From Salicibibacter cibi (lineage in GTDB: Bacteria; Bacillota; Bacilli; Bacillales; Marinococcaceae), in contig NZ_CP054706.1 of assembly GCF_016495865.1 (NCBI RefSeq), forward strand, positions 1,240,001 to 1,304,000: a DNA stretch of 64,000 bases, in the 5' to 3' direction. The notes beneath the pieces are model-generated. The model was not told the origin of the DNA and ran no database searches. It saw only the letters and a list, made by a program, of their open reading frames with translations. Shown here in pieces: positions 8,058-63,288 of the stretch. Both the position numbers and the translations under genes were made by a program. Positions within the stretch are counted from its first letter, which is position 1. Each line of letters starts with the position of its first letter.

Positions 8058-8067
8058 TATTCTATAT

Positions 8068-8354
8068 AGGGATTGCTGAACAACTTGCAGCTCTCAGCTG
8101 AAGCCGGGATGTCGCTTCCATGGCTTCGCTTTCCGCGGACGAACGGTCAAGCCTCCTCGCGCAAAACCGGCGCTGCGGGGGCTTGACGCGTCCGTTTTTC
8201 CGCTGGAGTCTCGCCATTGCAGCACCGTCCCACCGTACGTTGCCAGAAGTGCAAGGGTTTTTTGCTTATAGGATGAATTCCCTTGCATCCAACTTTGACA
8301 ACACCAACGGAAAATGCTTATGTGCCAGTCTTTTTCCATTATTCAGCAGTCCCT
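8068..8354 (+). mobile_element. MITE M1, copy a
   Basis: A 287 bp non-autonomous element almost identical to copies at 48232-48518 (inverted) and 62907-63194. Its termini are imperfect inverted repeats, AGGGATTGCTGAA on the left and AGGGACTGCTGAA (reverse complement) on the right. It is flanked by the direct repeat ATAT (8064-8067 and 8355-8358), the expected target-site duplication. The right end overlaps the last codons of yhaA. No transposase is encoded; the parent IS is not in this window. Confidence 0.88.
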
Positions 8355-9520
8355 ATATAATGGAGCACAGCTTTGCCAAGCGTTTTGGCGGCAATGAGCA
8401 TGGCCCGCTCATCAAAGTCAAATTTAGGGTGATGGTGGGGGTAATTTTCCTCGCGATCCGGAAAGGCAGCGCCAGTGAAGAAAAATGTCCCTTTCTTTTC
8501 TTTAAGGTACGCGCTGAAGTCTTCTCCTGCCATAATAGGATTTCGTGTTTCCACGCGCTCCACGCCCGGAACAGTTGTCGCTATGGAAGCAAGGTAATCG
8601 TTCGCCTTTGCATCGTTCACGACAGGTGCATATCCACGTTCGTATTGTAAACTTGCTTTTGCCCCCATTGTTTTAGCAGTACCGGTGACGATGGTTTCCA
8701 GTTCTTTCTCAATTTGGGTTCGCACGTCTTCCTTGAATGTGCGTACCGTTCCCACGAGGGAGGCAGTGCCTGCAATCACGTTATAAGGGTTCTCGGCAAC
8801 AAAACTTCCGATGGAAACGACGGCGGACTCAAGGGGATCGACACGTCGGGAAACCAATGTTTGAATGCTGTTCACCATTTGCGATCCAATGACAATCGCG
8901 TCTTTACTCGTGTGGGGAGCAGCACCGTGTCCGCTCACCCCTTCGATATCAATGTAAAAATGGTCGGCCGCAGCCATAAACGGGCCGCTGCGTTGTTGGA
9001 TCGTCCATAGAGGATCCACGGCCCAAAAGTGGGTGCCGAAAATCACATCGACGCCCTCAAGGCATCCGTCCGCGATCATCGGTTCGGCGCCCCCCGGGGC
9101 GTGCTCTTCGGCATGTTGATGAATGAAAACAATCGTACCTTTCAGGTTATCGGCTTGTTCGGTTAATGCCTTCGCCAGTACGAGAAGGGTGGCGGTATGA
9201 CCATCATGCCCACACCCGTGCATCGCTCCATCGACTTTGGATTTATAAGCAACGTCTTTTTGGTCCTGGATGGGCAACGCGTCGAAATCGGCGCGCAAAG
9301 CGATGGTTGGCCCCGGTTTTCCGCCTTTCAGGGTCGCGACAACGCCACGTCCGCCGACGCCTGTTTTGATCGGAAGTCCTAATGCTTTGTGGTAACGGGC
9401 AATATAAGCCGGTGTCTCTACTTCCTTGAAGGAAATTTCAGGGTATTGATGCAAATATCTTCGTATATCAACCATTTCCTGATAATGATCCGTTAACGTT
9501 TGATACAGTTGCTCCTCCAT
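8339..9520 (-). CDS. yhaA: M20-family amidohydrolase YhaA
   Basis: 393 residues. M20D metallopeptidase/N-acyl-amino-acid amidohydrolase signatures include ALRADFDALPI, the metal site HGCGHDGHTA, HQHAEEHAPGGAE, the dimerisation-domain motif VSGHGAAPHTS and the C-terminal metal ligand region NPIMAGEDFSAY. It probably releases amino acids from N-acylated substrates; the real substrate is unknown. The gene follows ecsC in convergent orientation, as yhaA does in B. subtilis. Its last four codons and stop (GTAE-stop) come from the terminal inverted repeat of MITE M1 copy a, so the original C-terminus has been altered. Confidence 0.92.
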   Translation of the reverse strand: MEEQLYQTLTDHYQEMVDIRRYLHQYPEISFKEVETPAYIARYHKALGLPIKTGVGGRGVVATLKGGKPGPTIALRADFDALPIQDQKDVAYKSKVDGAMHGCGHDGHTATLLVLAKALTEQADNLKGTIVFIHQHAEEHAPGGAEPMIADGCLEGVDVIFGTHFWAVDPLWTIQQRSGPFMAAADHFYIDIEGVSGHGAAPHTSKDAIVIGSQMVNSIQTLVSRRVDPLESAVVSIGSFVAENPYNVIAGTASLVGTVRTFKEDVRTQIEKELETIVTGTAKTMGAKASLQYERGYAPVVNDAKANDYLASIATTVPGVERVETRNPIMAGEDFSAYLKEKKGTFFFTGAAFPDREENYPHHHPKFDFDERAMLIAAKTLGKAVLHYIGTAE

Positions 9521-11363: not shown

Positions 11364-11594
11364 GGCTCTTCATCAAAGTCTATCGTTGATAATAATGATG
11401 GGAACAACGCTCGCTAGCGAAGGAAAAACACGAAGACTCCTGTGGGAAAGCGTAGTGGGAAGACCCCGCAGAAAAAAGCGAATTTCTTTTTTCGAGGAGG
11501 CTGAGCTTGGGGCCCACGGAAAGCGTAGTGTTTTTCCGTAGCGGTTATCATAGTGCATAATCCATTTGGCAACCATAGATTTTAGTGTTGACCC
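11364..11594 (+). mobile_element. MITE M2 (ISL3-like ends), copy a
   Basis: A 231 bp element with imperfect terminal inverted repeats (left GGCTCTTCATCAAAGTCTAT, right end CCATAGATTTTAGTGTTGACCC reading inward as its relative). It is flanked by a perfect 8 bp target duplication GACCATTT at 11356-11363 and 11595-11602. GGCTCTTC-type ends and 8 bp duplications are typical of ISL3-family elements. The left duplication begins at the last base of the liaF-like stop codon. No transposase is encoded. Confidence 0.85.
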
Positions 11595-34226: not shown

Positions 34227-34463
34227 TGATAAAGTGAACCTTCCATCAGAGAGGGGCCCCCTCTGATGGATTAAAGTACACCGGCTAAATTCGCCACGTC
34301 CTGTGGCAATGCCGGCACTAGCCTGTCCTAGGCGTCGCAATCCAGATGACAGAAATCAGATAGCCAGAGATCAGATGCATGTTAGACCGAAGAGGGGAAG
34401 GGTTTCCGGGAAATAACTTTCTTCTATCTGACATTCCGGCTTCTGATGTCTGACCTCCGGAAT
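34227..34463 (+). repeat. R2 interspersed repeat, copy a
   Basis: About 237 bp matching 54053-54290 in inverted orientation. It starts with a hairpin CCATCAGAG...CTCTGATGG (34243-34269), continues through a conserved GGCTAAAT.GCCACGTCCTGTGGCAA segment and a GGCGTCGCAATCCAGAT block with several AATCAGAT-like direct repeats, and ends in GATGTCTGACCTCC. It lies between the divergent spoVB and comN genes. Coding capacity is absent. Confidence 0.82.
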
Positions 34464-34491
34464 ACCACCGGGATAAAGTGAGGGGAAAACC

Positions 34492-48003: not shown

Positions 48004-48224
48004 GGGCTCTTCACCAAAATCTATGGCTGACAAACTAGGGGCAATTATGATTGGTAGTGACCGTTACGGAAAAACACTACGCTTTCCGTGGGCCCCGAGC
48101 TCAGCTTCCTCGGAAAAAAGAAGTTCGCTTTTTTCCTGCGGGGTCTTCGCCCTGCGCTTTCCCATAGCGCTGATCAAGCGTTATCCATGCATTGGCTTGT
48201 TAACCATAGATTTTAGTGTTGCCC
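48004..48224 (-). mobile_element. MITE M2 (ISL3-like ends), copy b
   Basis: 221 bp element with ends GGGCTCTTCACCAAAATCTA and CCATAGATTTTAGTGTTGCC. Its internal core (GGGAAAGCG...AGACCCCGCAG, CTGAGCTCGGGGCCCACGG) matches copy a at 11364-11594 in the opposite orientation. No 8 bp target duplication is visible, and MITE M1 copy b begins only 7 bases beyond its right end. Confidence 0.8.
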
Positions 48225-48231
48225 CATATGT

Positions 48232-48518
48232 AGGGACTGCTGAATAATGGAAAAAGACTGGCACATAAGCATTTTCCGTTGGTGTTGTCGAAGCTGGATG
48301 CAAGGAAATCCATCCTATAATCAAAAAACCCTTGCACGTCTGGCAACACACGGAGGGACGGTGCTGCAATGGCGAGACTCCAGCGGAAAAACGGACGCGT
48401 CAAGACCCGGAAGCGCCGGTTTTGCGCGAGGAGGCTTGACCGTTCGTCCGCGGAAAGCGAAGCCATGGAAGCGACATCCCGGCTTCAGCTGATAGCTGCA
48501 AGTTGTTTAGCATTCCCT
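48232..48518 (-). mobile_element. MITE M1, copy b
   Basis: 287 bp, inverted relative to copies a and c. Flanked by the perfect direct repeat ATATGT (48226-48231 and 48519-48524). Adjacent to MITE M2 copy b, forming a two-element array upstream of the creatinase-like operon. The 81-codon open frame inside it is not considered a gene. Confidence 0.88.
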
Positions 48519-48733
48519 ATATGTACATACGACACAATTTCTTTTAGGGAAGAGGGTGTTACAATGTGACGTTTCGTAACAAATGGTTGATAGAATGTGC
48601 TGTGTCAGTGGCCCTACTAGTATTGAACGAAGACCAATACTGCCGGACTATCACATTCAAAAGTTCAAAAAGCTATGCAAGTCCTGACAAAAATACATTT
48701 AGACTTTGTATTAATGATTTGATGTGTTAATAT

Positions 48734-48760
48734 GAACATGTTCTTATTATGAACATGTTC
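48734..48760 (+). promoter_or_regulatory. twin palindromic operator of the creatinase-like operon
   Basis: Two exact copies of the palindrome GAACATGTTC (48734-48743 and 48751-48760) with centres 17 bp apart, directly after a probable extended -10 (TGTGTTAATA, 48723-48732). They lie 25 bases before the first start codon. The TetR regulator encoded at the end of the operon is the likely ligand. Confidence 0.8.
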
Positions 48761-48784
48761 ATTGAATATTTACGGAGGGTTATA

Positions 48785-49933
48785 ATGTCTATAAATCAAG
48801 AAATAGTAGAAATGCGAATGTCAATGTTTCGCTCCCGTATGGCTGACAAGAGCATCGATTACACGTTGTTATGGGACCCTGATAACCAATATTATTTGAG
48901 TAATTTTCAAGCGATTTCCTATTCCAGGCCCATTGTGCTGCTCATTGAACAGAAAAAATCCCAATACATTATCCCGGCTTTAGAGGAAGATCACGCGAAG
49001 GAAAAGACAAATGTTGATGAGTTTTTTATTTACCATGAAAAAGTACAAAATAGTCACTTGAATACAGATTATAAAGAGCCTTTATGCAATATCATGAATG
49101 ATTGGCCTAAAGATGTTGTTGTGGGTGTTGAAATGGACATACTGCCTGCCTCGATATATCAAATATTGCATGAACAAGGGTTTAGAATGAAAGATATAGA
49201 ACAAGATCTCATTGAATTACGTAGTGTGAAAGATCAAGAGGAAATTTATTGGCTTGAACAAGCAGGTCGTTTGTCAGATGCAGCGTTAGAAGCGTCATTT
49301 GCAAATGTAAGAGTCGGGATGAGTGAACTGGAATTTGATTCTTTTGGCGATCAGAAATTATTAGAAATGGCTTCAAAAGAGTTTCCTGGTTTAATTGTTG
49401 GTTATGAAAACTGGACGTGTTCCGGAATCGAGCGTAGTGTGATGCCTCATCTTCACTCCAGCACGCGTAAATACGAAAATAATGACGTGATTATACATAG
49501 TCGGCAAGTATGGATCAATGGATATCGCGCGGAAAATGAACGAACTTTTTTTATGGGAGAACCCACGGAAGAGCAAAAAAAATGCTTTCAACTTGCTGTA
49601 GATGCTCAACAAGCTGGTTTTGACATGGTCAAGCCAGGTGTGAAGGCCAAAGATGTGGATATTGCTTCCTTTGATATTTTTGAGGAAAAAGGCTACGGAA
49701 AATATGTGCAGCATCGAATTGGACATGGGCTTGGTTTGACAGAGCATGAAGAACCTTACCTTCGTTTTGACAATGATCTTGTTTTAGAAGAAGGCATGGT
49801 TTATACGATCGAACCGGGCATTTATGTACCGGGTGTTGGCGGCTTTCGTCACTCTGATACAGTTATTGTTACAAAAGACGGGTGCCGAAGTATTACAGCA
49901 TATCCTCGGGAAATGGAAAAGCTGATGTTTTAA
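48785..49933 (+). CDS. creatinase-like M24-family hydrolase
   Basis: 382 residues from ATG 48785 behind GGAGGG. An N-terminal creatinase/prolidase domain (about 1-130) is followed by a pita-bread M24 domain. Of the five M24 metal ligands, the first Asp is Ser239, the second is Glu250 and the last Glu is Ser357; only His314 (IGHGLG) and Glu343 (IEPGIY) remain. The C-terminal GVGGFRHSDTVIV resembles metal-free creatinase. I infer a non-metal amidinohydrolase- or ectoine-hydrolase-like enzyme and not a dipeptidase. The substrate is unknown. The gene is AT-rich compared with its surroundings and leads an operon with a BCCT transporter. Confidence 0.8.
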   Translation: MSINQEIVEMRMSMFRSRMADKSIDYTLLWDPDNQYYLSNFQAISYSRPIVLLIEQKKSQYIIPALEEDHAKEKTNVDEFFIYHEKVQNSHLNTDYKEPLCNIMNDWPKDVVVGVEMDILPASIYQILHEQGFRMKDIEQDLIELRSVKDQEEIYWLEQAGRLSDAALEASFANVRVGMSELEFDSFGDQKLLEMASKEFPGLIVGYENWTCSGIERSVMPHLHSSTRKYENNDVIIHSRQVWINGYRAENERTFFMGEPTEEQKKCFQLAVDAQQAGFDMVKPGVKAKDVDIASFDIFEEKGYGKYVQHRIGHGLGLTEHEEPYLRFDNDLVLEEGMVYTIEPGIYVPGVGGFRHSDTVIVTKDGCRSITAYPREMEKLMF

Positions 49934-49944
49934 GCAAACGGTAG

Positions 49945-49963
49945 CCCCCTCGTAAAGAGGGGG
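49945..49963 (+). terminator. intra-operon hairpin
   Basis: CCCCCTC / GAGGGGG with loop GTAAA, between the hydrolase and transporter genes. The tail is poor in T, so it is more likely an mRNA-stabilising or attenuating hairpin than a full terminator. Confidence 0.5.
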
Positions 49964-49995
49964 TCATTATTTCTTCAAAGGAGATTGATTTTAAC

Positions 49996-51516
49996 ATGAG
50001 TGAGAAAATTGACAAGACTATCTTTTATCCATCAATACTTGTCGTATTAATAGCCATTGGGTTGCTAATCGGATTTCGAGAAACAGCAGAGCCTGTGATT
50101 GAAGAGATGCTGGCAATGGTTACGACCAATTTGGACTGGGCGTTTGAGTTTCTGACAATAGGTTTATTTATCCTGTTTATATGGTTGATATTCGGACGTT
50201 TTGGCAAAGTGAAGCTAGGGGATCCCGATGATAAGCCCGAATTTTCAAGATTTAGTTGGGGTGGCATGCTTTTTACGGCTAGTATGGGAACAAGCATTAT
50301 GTTTTGGTCCATTGTTGAGCCCCTTTACTATTATACGGATCCTCCATTCGGGATTGAACCTGAAACAGCAGAAGCCGGCGATTATGCTGTTACTTATGGT
50401 TTATTCCATTGGGGTATATCTGCATGGGCTTTATACGCCCTCCCGGCACTCGTGATTGCCTATAGCCTCTATGTTCGAAAAGAACGATCATTAAGGATCA
50501 GCACTGCTTGTCGAGGTATTTTGGGGAAGCATGCTGATGGTTTAATCGGGAAAGGAATCGACATTCTTGTGATATGGAGCCTTGTTGGAGGTTTGGGAAC
50601 GTCATTAGGTCTTGGCGTACCTATGGTTTCTAATGTTATATCGGAGATCATTGGGGTAGAACCATCTATGATGATGAATGTATTGGTCCTTTTAGTGTTT
50701 ACGGTCATCTTTAGTATAAGTGCTTATATCGGCTTATACAAAGGCATTCGACGACTAAGTGATTGGAATGTATATATAGCCCTGGGATTGGCTTTATTTG
50801 TTATCGTTGTAGGTCCGACAATGTTTCTTCTCTCCTATTTTGCCAATAGTCTAGGTTTAATGTTCGACAATTTTATGCGTATGAGCTTGCATACAGATCC
50901 TATTAGTCAAAGTGGATTTCCGCAAGACTGGACCGTCTTCTATTTTGCATGGTTCGCGGCGACGGCCCCATTTATTGGTCTATTTGTGGCCCGTATTTCC
51001 AAAGGTCGTACCATTCGTGATCTTTTGAGTACCGTTATATTATGGGGGTCATTTGGAAGTTGGCTTTATTTTGGGGTCTTCGGTGGCTATGGCATAAATT
51101 TAGAACTTACGGGACAACTTAATTTCTCAGAAATCGTTCAGGAAAGTGAGCAGGCTGTTATCGTAGAAGTTTTAAGTTCCTTGCCTTTGGCTTCACTGTT
51201 TCTCATCTTCTTTGCGGTTCTCGGTTTTATTTTCTTGTCAACCTCTATTGACTCTGCTGCATACGTACTCGCGGGGATTACAACGGAAAGGTTAGGAGGG
51301 ACTGAGCAGCCAGCACGATGGAACCGCTTGTTATGGGGGTTTATCTTAGCCACACTGGCCATTAGCTTAACGCTCGCAGGGGAATTGCAAGTCGTTCAAT
51401 CATCAGCCGTACTCGTTTCCGTACCGGTGTTAATCATGTATGTATTGTTAGCTTCCTCTCTCTATCGTTGGCTTCATGAAGATGAAAAGAAAAGGAGAAA
51501 AAACCATGTCGAGTAA
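49996..51516 (+). CDS. BCCT-family transporter, substrate uncertain
   Basis: 506 residues with about 12 predicted helices. BCCT hallmarks: GTSIMFWSIVEPLYYY in TM4 and WTVFYFAWFAATAPFIGLFVARISKGRTIRDLL around TM8. In the BetP-type cage, TM8 reads YWAWWISWSPF; here it is Phe317, Trp319, Phe320 and Thr323, so most Trp positions are changed. That suggests a substrate other than glycine betaine. The gene lies 62 bases after the creatinase-like gene and overlaps tetR by 11 bases, so uptake and hydrolysis of the same compound is likely. Confidence 0.88.
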   Translation: MSEKIDKTIFYPSILVVLIAIGLLIGFRETAEPVIEEMLAMVTTNLDWAFEFLTIGLFILFIWLIFGRFGKVKLGDPDDKPEFSRFSWGGMLFTASMGTSIMFWSIVEPLYYYTDPPFGIEPETAEAGDYAVTYGLFHWGISAWALYALPALVIAYSLYVRKERSLRISTACRGILGKHADGLIGKGIDILVIWSLVGGLGTSLGLGVPMVSNVISEIIGVEPSMMMNVLVLLVFTVIFSISAYIGLYKGIRRLSDWNVYIALGLALFVIVVGPTMFLLSYFANSLGLMFDNFMRMSLHTDPISQSGFPQDWTVFYFAWFAATAPFIGLFVARISKGRTIRDLLSTVILWGSFGSWLYFGVFGGYGINLELTGQLNFSEIVQESEQAVIVEVLSSLPLASLFLIFFAVLGFIFLSTSIDSAAYVLAGITTERLGGTEQPARWNRLLWGFILATLAISLTLAGELQVVQSSAVLVSVPVLIMYVLLASSLYRWLHEDEKKRRKNHVE

Positions 51517-52216
51517 AGAAATACAAAGAGAACGAATGTGGCACTATTTTATTAATGCGGCGGCTGATTTGATAGAAGAAGTAGGGATTGAAAAAATCAC
51601 AGCTCGTAAAGTTGCCGAGAGAGCAGGATTTACAACTTCCACGATCTATAATTATTTTCAAGAGCTTTCCCATGTTATATTTTTCGCATCTATGCGTTAC
51701 ACAAAACCGTATCTTGAACATTTGCCGCTGTATATGGCTCAAGGAAGGAATACGCTAGAAAAATGGTTGTACGGGTGGGAATGCTTTTGCAAAGAATCGT
51801 TTAAACACCCACAGATCTATGCAAGTATTTTTATTAATCATTTAGGTTCCATTCCTGAAAATTTGCTCAATCATTACTACAGTATATACAAAAATGATCT
51901 CGTAAGATTACCTGAACATCTTCAATCCATTATATTGGAGCATACACTCTCCATACGAAGTTCCCTATATGTACAGCAAGCGGTGGATGAAGAAATGCTA
52001 AGTCAAGGAGATGTGAATTATATTTCAGAAGTCACCCTTTTAATTTGGAAAGGCATGATGATGAATGTGTTAAATCAACGTAGGACATATTCGGAAACAG
52101 AAGCGATGCAACAAACACTTCAACTTATCCAAAAAACGGTAATGAAGGTTGTTCCGGAAGAAAAACAAAATGATGTAAAGGTGGTATTTCATTTTGATCA
52201 TGAAGCATGTGTGTGA
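51506..52216 (+). CDS. TetR/AcrR-family transcriptional regulator
   Basis: 236 residues from ATG 51506 behind AAAGGAG. N-terminal helix-turn-helix: INAAADLIEEVGIEKITARKVAERAGFTTSTIYNYFQELSHV. A variable ligand-binding domain follows. Its gene overlaps the BCCT stop by 11 bases and shares the operon. The twin GAACATGTTC palindromes before the operon have the size and symmetry of a TetR operator, so autoregulated control by the imported compound is inferred. Confidence 0.9.
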   Translation: MSSKEIQRERMWHYFINAAADLIEEVGIEKITARKVAERAGFTTSTIYNYFQELSHVIFFASMRYTKPYLEHLPLYMAQGRNTLEKWLYGWECFCKESFKHPQIYASIFINHLGSIPENLLNHYYSIYKNDLVRLPEHLQSIILEHTLSIRSSLYVQQAVDEEMLSQGDVNYISEVTLLIWKGMMMNVLNQRRTYSETEAMQQTLQLIQKTVMKVVPEEKQNDVKVVFHFDHEACV

Positions 52217-54052: not shown

Positions 54053-54290
54053 TATTCTGGAGGTCAGACATCGGAAGCCGGAAGTCAGATGAAAGTTATT
54101 TCCCAGCATCCCTTCGCTTCTGCGATCTATCGTCATCTGTTCTCTGGCTATCTGATTTCTGTTATCTGGATTGCGACGCCCAGGACGGGCTAGTGCCGGC
54201 GTTGCCACAGGACGTGGCCAATTTAGCCAGCGTACCCTTAATCCATCAGGGGGTAACCCTCTCCTCTGATGAAAGTTCCACGTTATCGCT
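54053..54290 (-). repeat. R2 interspersed repeat, copy b
   Basis: Inverted copy of 34227-34463. Its end reaches the last codons of rarA (stop at 54283-54285). It conserves the CATCAG...CTGATG hairpin, the GGCGTCGCAATCCAGAT block and the GATGTCTGACCTCC end. It fills most of the gap between rsfA and rarA. Confidence 0.82.
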
Positions 54291-62782: not shown

Positions 62783-62906
62783 TAGGAGTTCTCTGTTCAT
62801 GGAGCTCGAAAGCGGTGAAAAAAAGAGTATGCGGTCGTCATGAAAGGATTATGGCGACCGAATGGATCGAATCCCGGAGCAAATGTCGCCATGCCACATA
62901 GTAAAT

Positions 62907-63194
62907 AGGGATTGCTGAACAACGTGCAGCCATCAGCTGAAGCCGGGATGCCGCTTCCATGGCTTCGCTTTCCGCGGACGAACGGTCAAGCCTCCTCGCG
63001 CAAAACCGGCGCTGCGGGGTCTTGACGCGTCCGTTTTTCCGCTGGAGTCTCGCCATTGCAGCACCATCTCTCCGTACGTTGCCAGAAGTGCAAGGGTTTT
63101 TTTGCTTATAGGATGGATTTCCTTGCATCCAGCTTTGACAACACCAACGGAAAATGCTTATGTGCCAGTCTTTTTCCGTTATTCAGCAGTCCCT
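62907..63194 (+). mobile_element. MITE M1, copy c
   Basis: 288 bp, same orientation as copy a, one base longer in a T-run. Flanked by AAAT on both sides (62903-62906 and 63195-63198). It lies between the recD2 gene group and the yrrI-type gene. Confidence 0.88.
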
Positions 63195-63288
63195 AAATAT
63201 GCCGAAATTCTCAGCGGTCGTCCACTTTCTCGAATAATCACTCCTCAACAGTAAATGCTAATCATAATAAGACGCTGTGGAGGTAGGG

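Follow-up and report, generated by a model that had tools for sequence, protein, structure and literature searches.

To our knowledge, few M24 enzymes that work without a metal have a known substrate, namely creatinase and the ectoine hydrolase DoeA. DddP also has the M24 fold, and an excerpt of its description (PMC4108388) gives its six metal ligands as invariant and required. For DddT, a BCCT importer of dimethylsulfoniopropionate (DMSP), excerpts of PMC13270143 report that the W320A mutation abolished activity, that W321A raised it, and that two DddT relatives failed to carry DMSP. Parts of a 2026 paper (PMC13188858) describe separate putative ectoine clusters in Bacillota and ectoine import by BCCT and ABC systems. 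Here, we analyzed a window of 64,000 nucleotides from Salicibibacter cibi (contig NZ_CP054706.1, positions 1,240,001 to 1,304,000; the genome is a single contig of 3.81 Mb), in which positions 48734 to 52216 encode an M24 hydrolase, a BCCT carrier, and a TetR-family regulator behind two palindromes. The three genes form a real, conserved set that very likely works as a regulated unit for import and hydrolysis, and the enzyme is uncharacterized. Our preferred reading, to which we assign a probability of about 0.45, is that of a mobile, substrate-induced cassette that takes up a betaine-like compound and hydrolyzes it without a metal, with an N-substituted proline as the best guess.

All three open reading frames (ORFs) of the original prediction were found on the forward strand, behind both palindromes. 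The hydrolase (48785 to 49933, 382 aa), for which a structural model was predicted, scored 169.6 bits against PF00557 (cut-off 23) and 60 bits against PF01321 (cut-off 22). The BCCT carrier (49996 to 51516, 506 aa) scored 516.9 bits against PF02028 and 458.2 bits against TIGR00842 (cut-off 407.55), and the TetR-family regulator (51506 to 52216, 236 aa) scored 35.9 bits against the PF00440 helix-turn-helix profile (cut-off 24). With the regulator starting at 51506, its gene overlaps the carrier gene by 11 bp. The likeliest start of the hydrolase gene, 48785, is preceded by a GGAGGG site; the first ATG of the ORF, at 48749, lies exactly where the second palindrome begins. In the alignment, the Asp, Asp, His, Glu, and Glu ligands of metallo-prolidases and aminopeptidase P correspond to S239, E250, H314, E343, and S357 of the hydrolase, such that three of the five are replaced, and these replacements are fixed across the 30 rows of alignment A1. 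The enzyme thus looks metal free by alignment, as had been proposed, and the loss of the ligands goes against the first refuting outcome named there, that of metal-binding homologues. The creatinase pocket residues R64, H232, E262, H324, and E358 align with R48, H222, E252, H314, and E343.

The gene set recurs in other genomes, which had been the first check suggested for it; the second refuting outcome, a lack of co-occurrence, therefore did not appear. We searched with patterns derived from A1, which tilts the search toward close homologues because these supplied the patterns. It yielded 30 named loci (genomes and loci are given by our G and L numbers), and in 29 of these a complete or partial M24 gene clusters with the window enzyme. 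The other, L041:9001-9285 of Bacillus sp. FJAT-27445, is a remnant matching residues 282 to 382 beside the usual DUF2179 neighbor, a decayed cassette. BCCT genes were present in 21 of the 29 loci, and all 21 also have TetR (that of L026 was seen by translation); a 682-aa S15/CocE-type hydrolase is found in 16. In a set of 41 related genomes, which includes species also represented by named loci, the enzyme occurs at 59% identity or more in six, and a BCCT gene adjoins it in five, the exception being G002. The family is rare, with close members in 3 of 398 genomes in a phylum sample and, at a looser cut, members in 8 of 398 in a class sample, own genome included in both. The whole trio is present in G303, and the enzyme family also occurs on a Cytobacillus plasmid and on a metagenome-assembled genome (MAG) contig filed as Spirochaetaceae (L039), which suggests horizontal spread, with the usual doubt attached to MAG contigs. 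On the plasmid (L083:8349-8804), the CocE-type gene is a 151-aa ORF versus about 682 aa elsewhere; the BCCT and enzyme ORFs there are full length.

The position of the cassette also points to mobility. The block at about 47.68 to 52.39 kb, between aspS and 6S RNA, has no counterpart at that site in G001, G002, G003, and G006; in these genomes, aspS leads into the downstream sequence that is also present here, 6S RNA included. The gap downstream of aspS is about 35 to 60 bp in G001, G002, and G006 and about 470 bp, unmatched here, in G003. The enzyme gene lies at another genome site in G002 (82% enzyme) and G006 (89% enzyme), and we therefore conclude that the cassette moves. Positions 48734 to 52216 have a GC content of 40.0% versus 46.8% for the window, and only 2 of 606 same-size sliding windows were lower. 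Both the accessory insertion and its AT-richness, as described in the original prediction, were thereby borne out.

The two palindromes, GAACATGTTC at 48734 to 48743 and ATGAACATGTTCAT at 48749 to 48762, are candidate TetR operators, the first of them kept in relatives. GAACATGTTC occurs twice in the 64 kb, at 48734 and 48751, and none of 100 shuffles gave two copies. The inner 12-mer of ATGAACATGTTCAT has three places in the genome, the other two within ORFs. Two further genomic copies of TGAACATGTTCA were taken as chance, lying inside ORFs that by eye resemble a carbon-starvation-protein gene and cheA. We found GAACNNGTTC (class A) upstream in all eight named loci ordered M24, BCCT, TetR, with 0.023 loci expected from letter shuffles. 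In the 16 other-class loci, which have a divergent TetR gene or are of the Brevibacillus and C. difficile forms, TAATCATGATTA (class B) was in the searched stretch of 14 (0.025 expected); in L029, it is present but further away than that stretch. The recognition helices of the regulators split like the operator classes, with G[FY]T in 11 of 11 and GYN in 15 of 15. Because operator and recognition helix vary together, TetR is likely to be the protein that reads the palindrome, and the palindrome is likely its operator, judging from sequence. TetR would then repress the cassette and permit its induction, and the candidate operator offers a ready reporter for identifying the inducer.

The carriers suggest what kind of compound is taken up. 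The best solved relative of the window BCCT is DddT (43% identity, E 3e-134); of the DddT aromatic cage (W140, W320, W321, and Y324), W139 and W319 are kept, with F320 and T323 in the other two places. Since F and T occupy these places in all 24 aligned cassette BCCTs (including L068, a repeat of L016), these carriers form a group distinct from DddT. In the congener G002, OpuC-type genes replace the BCCT gene in place, and the enzyme, regulator, and operator are kept: by eye, the enzyme gene, four OpuC-type ABC genes, and TetR lie in one orientation behind the same palindrome. The best solved match of the G002 binding protein is OpuCC (E 1e-54), and OpuC-type genes also adjoin the enzyme gene in Filobacillus. 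Both enzyme-linked binding proteins keep YSG, but, unlike OpuCC, have Glu in place of the Thr of the YSGT motif; in L019, Thr is found at this position in an Opu protein encoded further upstream. We take the Glu to suggest that the ligand is cationic and differs from glycine betaine. Carriers of the BCCT or OpuC type point to the betaine-like zwitterion class that had been proposed, which makes the class plausible and leaves the substrate an inference. In Natribacillus (L012:609-8109), a second BCCT (43% identical) and HyuA/HyuB-type genes, which resemble acetone carboxylase by eye, adjoin the cassette on the other strand.

Gene neighbors elsewhere hint that the product of the enzyme may be proline; this link and the one to an S15/CocE-type hydrolase were no part of the original prediction. 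We compared 45 neighborhoods (the 29 named loci, the window, the plasmid, and 14 further genome stretches, with duplicates removed; several end at contig ends). Proline dehydrogenase lies within about 9 kb of the enzyme gene in six of them, beside BCCT or SSS carriers, where we estimate a chance expectation well under one (1 to 2 such genes per 4 Mb; loci not independent). These are Neobacillus niacini (L021), Bacillus sp. MRMR6 (L027), Sporosarcina sp. JAI121 (L029), G435 (L080), where it directly follows an M24-amidohydrolase pair with an SSS carrier, G727 (L094), where it occurs with PruA, SSS, and amidohydrolase genes, and the Cytobacillus plasmid (L083), where it accompanies PruA, an ornithine-cyclodeaminase-family gene, and a piece of aconitase X. 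An excerpt of PMC5144071 identifies aconitase X as a cis-3-hydroxyproline dehydratase in hydroxyproline clusters.

We propose that TetR would sit on the palindromes and be released once a betaine-like compound enters the cell. The BCCT carrier, or the OpuC-type ABC importer in the congener, would import a small cationic carboxylate. The M24 protein would then cleave it without a metal; its acidic pocket, of the creatinase type, would comprise H222, E250, E252, and E343, and the N-terminal domain would contribute R48 in a position like that of creatinase R64. If the substrate is an N-substituted proline, the released proline could pass through proline dehydrogenase to glutamate. The direction of transport, the bond cleaved, and the substrate are what we infer from these comparisons.

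Several observations weigh against this proposal. TetR occurs without BCCT in 3 of the 29 named loci (L033 to L035), neither is present in 5 (L014, L036, L037, L039, and L040), and the 61% BCCT of G018 sits away from its M24 gene. L017 is without the class B palindrome TAATCATGATTA, and L014, which is without TetR, has just a partial class A site. No proline gene stands beside the window cassette, and 39 of the 45 neighborhoods, several limited by contig ends, show none; in L021 and L027, the proline genes and the cassette have a regulator gene of the opposite strand between them. We know of no precedent for the metal-free hydrolysis of an ordinary X-Pro bond, and three acidic residues suit a cation or an amidine better than a plain peptide. 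The carriers beside distant members also vary, including OpuC, APC, SSS, NCS1 (with hydantoinase), substrate-binding protein family 5, and a TTT-like set; the substrates may therefore differ too, and the M24 subfamily may serve several. We labeled the TTT-like set by eye; Pfam gave no match for its binding protein. One such set lies beside a 46% enzyme paralogue at L008:6228-9368 (G000:C1 ~2231200-2234400), where the large membrane subunit is split over two ORFs versus one 490-aa ORF in G003.

The acidic pocket would also suit a creatinase-type amidinohydrolase that splits creatine or another guanidino acid into urea and an N-substituted amino acid, which we consider rather unlikely. Among solved folds, creatinase ranks first by Z against the hydrolase model, and with the five aligned pocket residues kept, the creatine-like chemistry of the original prediction could fit. 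However, identity is about 24%, S357 stands in the place of H376, and the R335 loop is shorter. An M24 tree of 31 rows put creatinase on a very long branch and therefore failed to place the family. Putative partner genes of a creatinase do not follow the enzyme either. Urease was over its cut-off in two of seven close-enzyme genomes (G000 and G002; below it in G005, G006, G008, G022, and G303) versus three of eight others searched. A match like monomeric sarcosine oxidase occurred in three of seven versus five of eight, none above the cut-off, so that neither gene tracks the enzyme in these 15 chosen genomes. Several comparisons lend some support to another reading, an ordinary Xaa-Pro metallopeptidase that stands beside the carrier by chance: prolidases lead both the PDB sequence scores (E 1e-46) and Foldseek, databases label homologues Xaa-Pro peptidase, and some relatives have S15-type and proline genes nearby. 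The three replaced metal ligands, fixed in A1, the best prolidase model at 177 of the 630 bits needed, and the frequent co-inheritance with betaine-type carriers nevertheless make this improbable.

Two known osmolyte reactions were considered along with the ordinary prolidase, and all three were lowered by family scores under the cut-offs and by residue mismatches. Cleavage of DMSP or another tertiary-sulfonium or quaternary osmolyte, in the manner of DddP with DddT, draws on the relation of the carrier to DddT and on the presence of DddP among the structural matches. We regard it as very unlikely given the 38.8 of 600 bits on NF043017, the lost M24 ligands against the six that DddP requires, the F and T in the DddT cage, and the DddT relatives that are not DMSP carriers. 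A second type of ectoine or hydroxyectoine hydrolase in Bacillota seems scarcely probable. DoeA structures rank fourth and fifth in the Z-ranked comparison, DoeA likewise appears to miss the usual ligand letters, and ectoine import by such carriers would be in keeping with the excerpted 2026 paper. The hydrolase, however, reached 69.6 of 613 bits on TIGR02993 (DoeA/EutD), and where it has R48, E252, and E343, the DoeA-like proteins and the DoeA chain carry different residues. The separate putative clusters of Bacillota and two DoeA-like genes elsewhere in the genome (476 and 459 bits, under the 613-bit cut-off) also count against it, which weakens ectoine as the substrate first suggested. By eye, the DoeA-like gene in L010:1114-4870 (G000:C1 ~1698100-1701900) follows aldehyde-dehydrogenase-like and homoserine-dehydrogenase-like genes, an order that resembles the putative cluster in the excerpts of PMC13188858.

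Other features surround the cassette. A high-copy repeat at 48220 to 48522, found by genome search and self-BLAST and resembling a miniature inverted-repeat transposable element (MITE), has at least 40 places in the genome, itself included, at 91 to 100% identity (best 40 of 266 candidates); two further copies of this 300-bp repeat lie in the window at 8064 to 8367 and 62905 to 63201. A short repeat at 48012 to 48167 is 82% identical to 11440 to 11587 by self-BLAST. Two repeats adjoin the cassette, and the earlier label of two MITEs is reasonable for what are putative elements. A terminator-like hairpin at 49944 to 49964 on the forward strand, between the hydrolase and carrier genes, carries little weight because the scan found 5 in the region versus 2.9 expected. 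A sigma-70 scan listed no site upstream of the hydrolase gene, with 10 sites in the region versus 11.9 expected. Two Bacillaceae-1 RNAs (34269 to 34334 and 54177 to 54242) fall within an 84% repeat pair (34228 to 34464 and 54053 to 54287).

In summary, a family labeled "Xaa-Pro dipeptidase" accompanies betaine carriers across hosts that range from halophilic Bacilli to anaerobes, and its annotation may hide both a nutrient and an enzyme chemistry. Among the matches listed in a literature search of titles and abstract openings, there was no description of the trio or of its metal-free M24 enzyme. We put forward only tentatively, as a doubtful extension, a metal-free hydrolase subfamily for betainic N-substituted proline and an undescribed osmolyte-to-nutrient pathway in which carrier families are swapped around a fixed enzyme, regulator, and operator. 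Prolidases (3Q6D and 1PV9) give the best sequence scores and keep the His at H222, but the window enzyme has replaced three of their five metal ligands. DoeA/EutD (6TWK) is likewise an M24 fold acting on an osmolyte, with the usual ligand letters absent in the alignment, but its pocket letters differ. The window BCCT keeps W105, W140, S204, W313, F316, Y317, and W320 of DddT (21FH), as well as Y112, which is kept in 20 of the 24 cassette BCCTs, whereas W321, Y324, G101, and A99 are replaced by F, T, S, and G, respectively, in all 24. With creatinase (1CHM), the hydrolase shares the two-domain pita-bread fold, the loss of the metal site, and the five pocket equivalents, and it differs in the Ser at H376, in the shorter R335 loop, and in belonging to a gene set with a BCCT carrier and a TetR regulator.

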